A DNA stretch of 64,000 bases. Source: Micromonospora fulviviridis. GTDB taxonomy: Bacteria > Actinomycetota > Actinomycetes > Mycobacteriales > Micromonosporaceae. Of this stretch, positions 39,357-43,147 are shown in pieces. Each line of letters starts with the position of its first letter. Position 1 is the stretch's first letter. The stretch is from the NCBI RefSeq assembly GCF_014648395.1, contig NZ_BMRA01000005.1, positions 1 to 64,000 on the forward strand, written 5' to 3'. The translations under genes and the position numbers were made by a program. Below the pieces are notes generated by a model. That model did no database searches, was not told the origin of the DNA, and saw nothing but the letters and a program-made list of their open reading frames with translations.

Positions 39357-40340
39357 ATGTCGTACCCCGAGATCCGGCCCCGCCGGCTGCGCCGCAACGC
39401 GGCCGTGCGGCGGCTGGTCTCCGAGACCCGCGTCGACCCGGCCGAACTGGTCGTGCCGATGTTCGTCAAGGAGGGGCTGACCGAGCCGCGGGCCGTGGCG
39501 TCGCTCCCGGGGGTGCTCCAGCACTCCCGGGACTCGCTGCGCAAGGCCGCCGTCGAGGCGGTCCAGGCCGGGGTCGGCGGGATCATGCTCTTCGGGGTGC
39601 CGGCGTCGCGGGACGAGACCGGGTCGGGCGGCATCGACCCGGACGGCATCCTCAACGTGGCCATCCGGGACGTGATCGCCGAGGTCGGCGACGCCACCGT
39701 GGTGATGAGTGACCTCTGCCTGGACGAGTTCACCTCGCACGGGCACTGTGGCGTGCTCACCCCCGACGGCGCCGTGGACAACGACGCCACCCTGTCGGCG
39801 TACGCCCGGATGGCGGTCGCCCAGGCCGACGCCGGGGTCCACGTGGTCGGGCCGTCCGGGATGATGGACGGCCAGGTCGGCGCGGTCCGCCGGGCCCTGG
39901 ACGCCGCCGGGCACCAGGACGTCTCGGTGCTCGCGTACGCCGTGAAGTACGCCTCCGCCTTCTTCGGCCCGTTCCGCGACGCCGTGGAGTCGGCGCTCGA
40001 GGGCGACCGGCGCACCTACCAGCAGGACCCGGCGAACCTGCGGGAGTCGCTGCGCGAGGTCGCGCTGGACGTGGCCGAGGGCGCCGACATGGTGATGGTC
40101 AAGCCCGCCCTGCCCTACCTCGACGTGGTGGCGGCGGTCCGGGCCGCGGTCGACGTCCCGGTCGCCGCCTACCAGGTCTCCGGCGAGTACGCGACGGTCG
40201 AGGCGGCCGCCGCGAACGGCTGGATCGACCGCGAGCGGGTGATCATGGAGACGCTCACCTCGATCCGCCGGGCCGGGGCGCAGATCATCCTCACCTACTG
40301 GGCGGTCGAGGCGGCCCAGTTGCTCCGCCAGCGCTACTGA
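39357..40340 (+). CDS. hemB: Delta-aminolevulinic acid dehydratase (porphobilinogen synthase)
   Basis: A 327-residue TIM barrel condensing two 5-aminolevulinates. The two Schiff-base lysines are in [17 protein letters not shown] and [12 protein letters not shown]. The metal loop reads [14 protein letters not shown], with Cys121, Asp123 and Cys131: two of the three zinc cysteines are kept and the middle one is Asp, a pattern known in actinobacterial enzymes. The ATG has an AGGAGG site. The gene ends the hem operon and its stop overlaps the convergent gene by 7 bp. Confidence 0.96.
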
Positions 40341-41506
40341 ACGCTGACGGTCACCACCCGGGCCAGCTCCGCCACGCGATAGACCTTCCGGGGCGGGTCC
40401 GGTAGCTGCGCCCACACCACGCGGACGGTGGTGTCGTCGACCCAGGCGGCACCCCAGGTCCCGCCGCCCGTCAGGCCGTAGGTCGGGCTGGCCGTCCCGA
40501 GCGGCTGGTCGGCCCGGAGCTGCCCGGTAGCGGTGTCCAGGATCGCCAGCCGGTAATCGAGGTTCCGACCGTTCGGGCGGCGGTAGGGGACCGCGACGAG
40601 GCTGCCGTCCGGGGAGAGCCGGACCGACGGGGCACAGTCCCCGGCCACCGTCAGCCGCGACAGCCGGCTCCCACCGGCCAGCCGGCGTACGTCGAGCTGG
40701 CAGCGGGTCATGTCGGCCGGGCCGGTCACCGACACCACGCGGCCGGCCGTCACGTCGGCCTCACGGAACGGCAGCTCGCCGTCGACCTTCGTCGGCACCC
40801 GGATCAGGGTCTTCTCCCGGCCGGTGGTCAGCTCGTGGGACACCAGGCCCACCCCGTCCCGGACCAGGTAGGCGTACCGTGCGTCGGCGCCGGCCAGTCC
40901 GAGGGCCTGGCCCCTGACCCGGATCTCCCGGCTGACCTCGACGCGTCCGTCCGCGCTGAGCACCGTGAGCTTGATGGAGAGGCCGGCCACGTCCGGGCCG
41001 TCCGTCCGCCGCACGCCGGGCATGAGGTCGGTGAGCTTGAGGCCGACCAGCCGTCCGTCGGGCAGCGCCACGGTCTCCTGCCAGCCGGCGGGGACCCGGT
41101 GCCGGACCACCGAGCCGTCGCTGCGCAGCTCGTCCGCGGCGCCGCCGATCAGGCCGATCTCCGGGCCGGCCCGGTGCGGTCGCACGGTGCCGCCATCGCC
41201 GCTCAGCAGCAGCCGCTGGGCCGGCGCGGGGGTCGGCGGCGGCGAGCCGGGAACGGTCGGCGACGGCGACGGCGACGGCGCGGCCAGCGGCGCGGCCGGC
41301 CGGTGGTCGCCGACGAGCAGCGGCACGGTACCGCCGGTGAGCGCGACCAGGACCACCAGGCCCGCCACGGCCGTCGCGGTCCGCCGACGTCGGCGGGCGC
41401 GGGCGCGGCCGCGGACCGTCGCCAGGTCCGCCGGGTACGGCGCGGTCGCGCGAGCGGCGCGGTGAACCAGCTCGGCCACGTCCTCGGGTACGACGTCCAC
41501 GGTCAC
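40334..41506 (-). CDS. Membrane-anchored β-propeller-like partner of an ECF sigma factor
   Basis: A 390-residue protein with a cytoplasmic part of about 45 residues (Arg-rich [12 protein letters not shown]), one TM helix ([21 protein letters not shown]), a Pro/Ser-rich linker and an external domain with WD40/TolB-like strands ([27 protein letters not shown]). The GTG at 41506 overlaps the sigma-factor stop (GTGA). Such proteins are encoded behind SigE-like ECF genes in actinobacteria; an anti-sigma or signal-sensing role is inferred, not shown. Confidence 0.75.
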
Positions 41507-42036
41507 TCCTCCTCGGCCAGCGCGGCCCGCAGCTCGGCCAGCCCCCGGGAGAGGCGGCTGCGGACGGTGCCCTCGGTCAGGTCCAACACGGCAGCGGTCT
41601 CGGCGGTGGAGAGGTCCAGCAGCACCCGGCAGACGATCACGGTGCGCCGGCTCACGGGCAGCAGTTCCAGGGCCGACCGGGCGGCCAGCCCGGCGGGATC
41701 CGGGGCGGCTGTCGCCGGGTGCCGGTCCTCGGCCGGTGGCCGTTCCCGGCGTACCTTCCGCCACCAGGAGGTGGCCCAGTTCAGCCCGACCCGGAAGACC
41801 CAGCCACCGGGGTTGTCCAGCCGGCGCACCCGGTCCCACCGGGCGTACGCCCGGGCCATCGCCTCGTCGGTCGCCTCCCGGGCGACCGCGGTGTCCCCGA
41901 CGGACAGCGCGAGGGCGCGGTGGATCCGGTCCACATGGTCTCGATAGAACTGCTCGAACGGCAGGTGCGAGGACGTGTCGCGGTCGCGCGGCAACACGTC
42001 CGGCGGACCGGCCGGCGCCGGGGGGTGGCTTCCCAT
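41503..42036 (-). CDS. ECF-subfamily RNA polymerase sigma factor
   Basis: A sigma factor of about 177 residues. Region 2 (FEQFYRDHVDRIHRALALSV, ATDEAMARAYARW, GGWVFRVGLNWA) and region 4 (LLPVSRRTVIVCRVLLDLST, LDLTEGTVRSRLSRGLAEL) are present with a short linker, placing it in the SigE-like ECF group. The ATG at 42036 is chosen because the upstream frame crosses the large palindrome at 42199-42277. It is coupled to the downstream membrane partner gene. Regulon unknown. Confidence 0.85.
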   Translation of the reverse strand: MGSHPPAPAGPPDVLPRDRDTSSHLPFEQFYRDHVDRIHRALALSVGDTAVAREATDEAMARAYARWDRVRRLDNPGGWVFRVGLNWATSWWRKVRRERPPAEDRHPATAAPDPAGLAARSALELLPVSRRTVIVCRVLLDLSTAETAAVLDLTEGTVRSRLSRGLAELRAALAEEE

Positions 42037-42198: not shown

Positions 42199-42277
42199 CC
42201 CCGCTTTGCTCTGCAGCCATCGGCGCAGCGGCAACCCTCCGTGTCCGTTGCCCATATGGCTGCAGAGCAAAGCGGGG
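42199..42277. repeat. 79-nt palindromic element with nested hairpin
   Basis: Two perfect 21-bp arms (42199-42219 and 42257-42277; the outer part reads CCCCGCTTTGCTCTGCAG) enclose 37 nt that hold a second hairpin GGCAAC/GTTGCC (42230-42235/42247-42252). There is no T-run after it and no gene ends here, so it is not a normal terminator. The structure resembles REP/MITE-like palindromic repeats. A copy search in related genomes would decide. Confidence 0.75.
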
Positions 42278-42376
42278 TGGAGCGGGTAGGGCGACCACGA
42301 CGAACGTGTCGTCTTCGCCCGGATTGCGGCCCTCCATAGGCCGAGTTGCTCGAACAGGGACCGACGGCGACTCACG

Positions 42377-42541: not shown

Positions 42542-43114
42542 ATGAGCGCCCCCGCCACCCCCGACGAGCCGGCGGTCACGACCGATGAGCCTGTCGAGCC
42601 GCCCACGATGCTCACCGACCCCTTCGACATCCCCTGGCCCGCCCCGGGCATCGTCCGGGCGGTCCGCCGCCGGGCCGACGCCAGCCAGCGGGAGCTCGCC
42701 CGCGTTGCCCGGGTCCATCCGTCGACCATCGGGCGGATCGAGGCCGGCACGCTGACCCCGAGCATCGCCATGCTGCGTCGGATCATCGGCGTGGCCGGGT
42801 TCCGTCTCGCCGTGGTCGACGAGTTCGGCCGGGTGCTTGCGCCGATGCGGGACCGCGACGACCTGCGAGACGGCGCCGACCGCCGATATCCGTCCCACCT
42901 CGACGTGATCGCCGACCCGGAGCCGGGGGAGTGGTGGGCCGACCTCTACGGGCTGGCCCGCCCGCCGGAGACCTTCTACCGGGACCGGGCATACCGCGAC
43001 GCCCTCCGTCGGCGCAGCCAGTGGGAGGTGCGGGTGGCCAAGTACCGGGGCGTACCGCCGCCGCGGGACCCGCAGCGATGCGGATACCGCAACGGCCCGT
43101 CGTCCGGCTGGTGA
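42542..43114 (+). CDS. XRE family helix-turn-helix regulator
   Basis: A 190-residue protein with a Cro/CI-type HTH (about residues 38-95: IVRAVRRRADASQRELARVA, VHPSTIGRIEAGTLTPSIAMLRRI). The C-terminal half (RYPSHLDVIADPEPGEWWADL) recurs in actinobacterial XRE proteins and has no assigned role. ATG 42542 is taken because the longer frame crosses the DnaA-box repeats. No ribosome-binding site is obvious. Targets unknown; the palindromes upstream are candidates. Confidence 0.75.
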   Translation: MSAPATPDEPAVTTDEPVEPPTMLTDPFDIPWPAPGIVRAVRRRADASQRELARVARVHPSTIGRIEAGTLTPSIAMLRRIIGVAGFRLAVVDEFGRVLAPMRDRDDLRDGADRRYPSHLDVIADPEPGEWWADLYGLARPPETFYRDRAYRDALRRRSQWEVRVAKYRGVPPPRDPQRCGYRNGPSSGW

Positions 43115-43147
43115 GCCGGGCGACGGGCCGCTGCGCGGACCGGATCG

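Follow-up and report, generated by a model that had tools for sequence, protein, structure and literature searches.

The palindrome located between an ECF sigma factor gene and an XRE gene of Micromonospora fulviviridis is one of 12 copies, in this 6.98-Mb genome, of a dispersed element made of two inverted half-sites. We consider it fairly probable that these paired half-sites are read, on double-stranded DNA, by the XRE protein encoded just downstream, and that the palindrome is both the operator of the XRE gene and one member of a dispersed set of sites.

Anatomy and spread of the paired half-sites

The palindrome is real. The initial annotation of the window (the whole 64,000-nt stretch of DNA that was analysed) described perfect arms of 21 bp enclosing 37 nt; the arms are indeed perfect, but by sequence they measure 22 bp and enclose 35 nt (Table 1). 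The second hairpin described inside the arms, GGCAAC/GTTGCC, is present (42230–42235 and 42247–42252). The palindrome has no T-run, is not at a gene end and divides divergent genes, ECF sigma (−) and XRE (+), all as first described. Repeat search in this region returns a single arm pair of 33 nt with 88% complementarity. The predicted RNA fold of the 121-nt surround has an energy of −85 kcal/mol, compared to a mean of −50 for shuffled sequences (z of −9; none of 200 shuffles equals it).

The palindrome lies about 160 nt from the start of the ECF sigma gene (42036) and about 265 nt from that of the XRE gene (42542), both starts being those of a home-made caller. The ECF sigma frame is open through the palindrome up to a GTG at 42375, and four of four aligned species conserve the start at 42036. 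An intrinsic terminator was rejected, based on the lack of a 3' T-run and the position away from a gene end. A terminator-like G+C hairpin, also lacking a T-run, follows the XRE gene (43094–43129) and is separate from the palindrome; several genomes that lack the box have other terminator-like hairpins 3' of hemB, and these differ in sequence.

Table 1. Features of the palindrome and of its surroundings (window coordinates).
Feature	Position	Strand	Remarks
Whole palindrome, short size class	42199–42277	none	Conserved core 42205–42271 (67 nt)
Left arm CCCCGCTTTGCTCTGCAGCCAT	42199–42220		Exact reverse complement of the right arm, 42256–42277
Left outer box TTTGCTCTGC	42205–42214	+	Near-invariant in 103 unique 67-nt copies
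Left subtype bases AGCC	42215–42218	+	Vary between genomes, similar inside one genome
Left inner box CGCAGC	42224–42229	+	Family consensus CGCAnC
Central AC-N5-GT motif	42234–42242 (AC 42234–42235, GT 42241–42242)		Common, not universal, in short copies
Right inner box GTTGCC	42247–42252	−	Family consensus GnTGCG
Right subtype bases GGCT	42258–42261	−	Complement of AGCC
Right outer box GCAGAGCAAA	42262–42271	−	
XRE-type HTH protein, 190 aa	42542–43114	+	Putative reader of the sites
ECF sigma factor	41503–42036	−	Divergent neighbour; context, outside the family
hemB (ALAD)	39357–40340	+	Usual neighbour of the XRE slot in relatives

Each copy of the element is composed of two inverted half-sites, and each half-site of a TTTGCTCTGC box, four subtype bases and an inner CGCAnC box. 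The AT-richer core that had been noticed in the arms is the half-site box. The distances between boxes cluster at 56–58 (mostly 57), 69 and 111–112 nt; helical phasing of the 57, 69 and 111 size classes was considered and dropped, because other genera use spacings of 51–66 and 86. Positions 1–10 are nearly invariant on both sides in the 103 unique 67-nt copies, an invariance that is partly by construction, since a maximum of one mismatch in the two boxes together was allowed when these copies were chosen. The inner box occupies positions 20–25 and the centre is variable.

Within the M. fulviviridis genome, 21 arms match the box with zero or one mismatch and 21 with two, compared to 36 matches with up to two mismatches for the reversed control, so that no pool of slightly decayed arms is visible. 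In three species, the orthologues of the window copy have retained the boxes, apart from a single change in one of the arms in G009. For one long copy, whose orthologues were found by the similarity of their flanks and not by the box, both boxes are exact in five of five filled sites.

Some copies have additional features. The AC-N5-GT centre of many short copies is often close to TnAC-N5-GTnA (42234–42242 in the window), which resembles the BldD operator; BldD or another XRE dimer might presumably bind there. Extra right half-sites at a spacing of about 66 nt are found next to a normal copy in genome G022 (locus L048, 1500–1715). An oriented motif close to GCAGSTCARC was seen by eye in the extra stretch of long copies (L005, L013, L018 and L202) and in the centre of some Asanoa-type copies (e.g., L212).

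The 12 copies of the M. fulviviridis genome comprise seven of about 71 nt and five of about 125 nt. The proposal of a multi-copy, dispersed palindromic family is thus borne out, and the finding that would have spoken for a chance structure (a single copy with unconserved stems) was not made, since the copies are numerous and their boxes conserved. The box pair (TTTGCTCTGC and GCAGAGCAAA separated by 40–60 nt) occurs in 113 of 151 Micromonospora genomes, with 1–34 short-class copies per positive genome, and across the family in 108 of 300 genomes and 15 of 44 genera, Asanoa and Actinoplanes among them. The reversed control pattern was found in neither scan. These counts are underestimates: G011 is scored negative and yet has a long copy, and G151 has a copy with a spacing of 86.

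In a sample of the phylum, the pattern was found in two of 396 genomes, both of them Micromonospora, and in none of the 394 others. The matches listed from a wider collection include Actinoallomurus soli, two Actinomycetota MAGs and one Methylobacter contig, and six viral contigs match the element pattern. In the two MAGs (L306, L308 and L374), the same box pair surrounds shorter, differently built tandem hairpins, which are intergenic and may be distantly related to the family.

Linkage between the sites and the XRE gene

The XRE protein (threshold E ≤ 1e-20) is encoded in 95 of 151 Micromonospora genomes. Short-class sites and the XRE gene are both present in 94 genomes and both missing in 37; 19 genomes have sites only and one has XRE only (Fisher p of 5e-20). 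The XRE gene is thus absent from 37 of the 38 genomes that have no short-class site, and the exception, G011, carries a long-class copy. Among site-positive genomes, the median number of sites is 5.5 in the presence of XRE and 3 in its absence (p of 0.004).

The sites are also close to the gene. Of the 95 XRE loci, 92 were analysed (G044, G058 and G134 were left out), and the gene is preceded by a site in 88 of them, at a median distance of 225 nt (85 by a strict and three by a relaxed search); the four loci with none are in G008, G088, G091 and G123. Since hemB lies within the analysed stretch in 72 of these 92 loci, most of them represent one conserved slot and the counts are not independent. 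The strict pair is present in 19 of the 20 XRE loci that have no hemB in the stretch, although the window lineage at least, which is counted among them, is the hemB slot with genes inserted.

In other genera, the pair was found 5' of the gene in 12 of 14 XRE loci, in a sample of genomes with a strong XRE match, all but one of which had been picked for having sites. The pair of G323 is a compound of several half-sites and that of G151 is about 550 nt from XRE, while G166 has only a half-site beside the gene and G171 has none. Four of these loci (G158, G166, G171 and G219) are off the hemB slot, meaning that their neighbours are not hemB and the adjoining endonuclease or GNAT gene, as named by eye: two have the pair, one a half-site and one nothing. 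In Actinoplanes, A. subtropicus (G323) has both XRE and sites, and G178 and G276 have neither.

In a 95-genome tree of hemB, XRE and sites change together in all six independent pairs that have support, and the best tree has 12 changes; the design favours this outcome, since the tree contains none of the 19 discordant genomes and G011 was scored as positive. Fragment-like matches to XRE occur in the site-bearing genomes G087, G096 (L569) and G138 (L575), which in G096 and G138 suggests a recent loss of the protein. In the phage collection nothing matches the XRE protein, and among plasmids there is a single, HTH-only match; a phage or plasmid origin was rejected on this basis.

The site upstream of the gene in 88 of 92 loci in Micromonospora and 12 of 14 in other genera, together with the absence of the gene from nearly all siteless genomes, makes the XRE protein the likely reader of the sites. 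The sites could instead be those of a different factor, with XRE simply accompanying the slot that is conserved best. Indeed, in addition to the 19 discordant Micromonospora genomes, a single site without an XRE gene is found in each of G199 and G218, and one slot accounts for most XRE genes. Moreover, a constant box needs a constant reader, yet the recognition helix of XRE varies, and the helix type that goes with AGCC is also found with ACCC. We nevertheless judge this explanation improbable: XRE is missing along with the sites in 37 of the 38 siteless genomes and both are jointly present across genera, and the pair stands beside XRE in two of the four loci off the hemB slot.

The HTH of the XRE protein spans residues 34–83 approximately, with a recognition helix at 60–68, and is confident in the structure model. 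The C-terminal region is conserved, has a pLDDT of about 50–70 in the model and gives no Pfam hit; searches of Pfam, NCBIfam and solved structures with XRE return HTH relatives only. The alignment shows a correspondence between the start of the recognition helix and the subtype bases: HPS or HPT with AGCC, HHA with ACCC, HHG with TGCC, and APS with TTCA or TGCA. The exceptions are G071 and G150 (ACCC with HPS), G038 (TGCC with APS) and G086 (AGCC with NHS).

Among 43 close XRE proteins, residue 61, in the recognition helix, is the column most tied to the subtype (0.59), with a narrow lead since columns outside the HTH reach 0.57 and 0.52. When all 79 XRE proteins are considered, other columns outrank the helix and phylogeny swamps the signal. 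That the start of the helix tracks the subtype, and may read the four subtype bases, is suggestive and not proof.

The XRE protein would read inverted half-sites on double-stranded DNA, a dimer or dimers of dimers gripping both half-sites and bending or bridging the DNA. The palindrome upstream of the XRE gene would be its own operator, through which XRE would repress its own gene; the orthologues have the upstream site expected of an autoregulated operator, mostly at one slot. The other sites, many of them at long-kept intergenic positions, may form an architectural or a broad regulatory network, and away from XRE their use is perhaps architectural. A larger proposal, which we hold only tentatively and rather doubt, is that the solitary XRE protein and its kept sites form a family-wide, site-specific chromosome organiser, whose 4-bp specificity was switched genome-wide several times and which was repeatedly lost, protein and sites together.

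Shared positions, mobility and base pairing

Shared positions, defined by a common gene family on both sides among the three nearest called genes, were looked for in 79 genomes with 198 unique copies, and 88 of these copies share theirs with a copy in another genome. Without the loci that had been retrieved through their similarity to the window region, 66 of 171 copies share positions, in 68 pairs, which indicates that these positions are old. The size class is the same in 66 of the 68 pairs, compared to a fraction of 0.60 for random pairs; in nine of them one member at least is longer, and seven of these nine agree. Clear single cases are the kdpA and pyrD slots (named by eye), and some slots are shared even between genera. 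The window slot is common to G022, G033 and G009, and there the element is better conserved than its flanks.

The subtype is tied to the genome more closely than to the position. With one arm per copy, the fraction of identical subtypes is 0.60 within genomes, 0.16 between genomes and 0.28 at shared positions, where 49 of 68 pairs differ. Copies of different subtype at shared positions (99 pairs) were compared to 1500 random pairs: likeness is 0.625 vs 0.585 inside the element and 0.625 vs 0.581 in the flanks, a small effect from pairs that are not independent. Not every copy is old: when two copies of the M. fulviviridis genome were looked for in eight relatives, one, a long copy, was present in five and the other in one.

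The copies are mostly intergenic: eight of 190 overlap a called gene, and two lack a neighbour. Convergent gaps hold 63 of the 180 copies flanked by genes on both sides and make up 18 of 159 copy-free gaps of at least 80 nt in the same loci, according to the home-made caller. In gaps between tandem genes, the elements are closer to the 3' end of the first gene. This location pattern does not look like that of a promoter regulon.

The initial annotation regarded such nested palindromes as typical of REP- or MITE-like mobile elements. A non-autonomous element of this kind (MITE- or REPIN-like), with terminal inverted repeats of about 25 bp, mobilised in trans and by now largely fixed, would account for several of these features, including the multiple copies with conserved inverted ends and variable interior, the extragenic location (the REPIN-type layout), the enrichment in convergent gaps, and a copy number that varies by species, up to a copy present in a single relative. 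The near-identical copies with different flanks in G254 may reflect past copying. At the ends of 179 copies, 2-bp direct matches are in excess (27, compared to 11 expected), which may reflect a 2-bp target duplication.

The target-site duplication that had been proposed as a check is not seen at 3 bp or more: the same 179 copies have no excess of direct repeats at 3–5 nt (four, compared to 8.4 expected, at 3 nt), and end matches at 6 nt concern one or two copies only. The Y1 transposase (PF01797) is present in 44 of 151 genomes, 32 of the 113 with elements and 12 of the 38 without, and a RAYT partner was rejected because this domain is unassociated over the genus. No transposase was recognised by eye among the 40 largest clusters of neighbours, which resemble ordinary core genes; the Pfam scan of neighbours concerned the window's own. 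In the relatives that lack either of the two copies followed in eight genomes, the gap is shorter or different throughout, and no precise empty site is found; the elements may have been mobile in the past. As species also share positions despite different subtypes, the classical MITE or REP reading is not supported, and we regard a mobile element as unlikely. The attC sites of integrons were set aside as unlikely: their R' and R'' boxes differ by one base from the inner box, and nothing in them corresponds to the outer box.

The other suggestion of the initial annotation was a structured RNA, and covariation in the stems was to be looked for. Covariation is found: positions 11, 12 and 14 vary but match between arms in 99, 94 and 90% of cases, compared to 50, 40 and 56% expected, and positions 15–18 and 24 covary weakly between arms. 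At positions 19, 23 and 28–30, pairing is not clearly above expectation. The arms also match inside a genome (84 of 105 copies, compared to 67.5 expected) and flank positions 2–4 pair above expectation, two observations that lean toward pairing and would also fit a DNA hairpin.

The preference for wobble pairs that an RNA stem should show is absent. In 171 unique 67-nt copies, there are 167 G·T pairs and 169 mirror A·C mismatches over positions 1–27, and 1 and 14, respectively, in the outer 14 positions. RNA pairing is disfavoured because G·T is no commoner than its mirror; the test is compatible with a DNA cruciform. Rfam gives nothing at the gathering score, only sub-threshold models, mostly of microRNAs. 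A 3' UTR hairpin, an attenuator or a small RNA kept by base pairing would explain the stable fold, the covarying positions and the closeness of tandem-gap copies to the 3' end of the first gene. A subtype shared genome by genome is not what base pairing alone would give, several positions are not clearly paired, and the structured-RNA reading, not supported by the wobble and Rfam results, seems very improbable to us.

Related systems and significance

The closest system found in behaviour is EspR, with no claim of common descent. The part of the EspR report considered here describes, like the present family, an actinobacterial HTH protein with genome-wide sites beyond promoters, sites at its own promoter, and bridging or looping of DNA (PMC3315491). 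EspR binds 165 loci in M. tuberculosis, 55% of them inside genes, and its consensus, TTTGC[TC][GA], resembles the start of the outer box (TTTGCTC, one position off) (PMC3315491). In contrast to the present family, discrete, positionally conserved inverted pairs are not reported in that part of the text (PMC3315491). EspR is not among the matches of the XRE profile to solved structures at E ≤ 0.01.

MatP is not known to be an XRE protein. The likeness lies in a dedicated protein whose short chromosomal site is present in about two dozen copies, but matS is 13 bp long and restricted to the terminus region (PMC3330122), a restriction that may set it apart from the present sites. REPIN-RAYT systems have inverted conserved ends, a variable spacer, an extragenic location and a lineage-specific sequence (PMC3116915). 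Here, in contrast, there is no Y1 association, positions are shared across species, and an XRE gene takes the place of the transposase. GTAG/CGTC-tagged REPs are likewise palindromes lying mostly between tandem and convergent genes, and they measure 20–40 bp, compared to about 60–125 nt here (PMC3733652). By eye, no GTAG- or CGTC-like tag was noticed at the foot of the palindrome.

If XRE does read these sites, the Micromonosporaceae, a family of antibiotic producers, would own a dedicated network of a protein and its sites, of which no description was found among the literature matches listed. Matched changes of specificity in a single HTH protein and in its genomic targets would then form a natural series, in which the joint change of a regulator and a dozen sites could be studied directly. 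A handle on chromosome organisation in the Micromonosporaceae would be a further gain.
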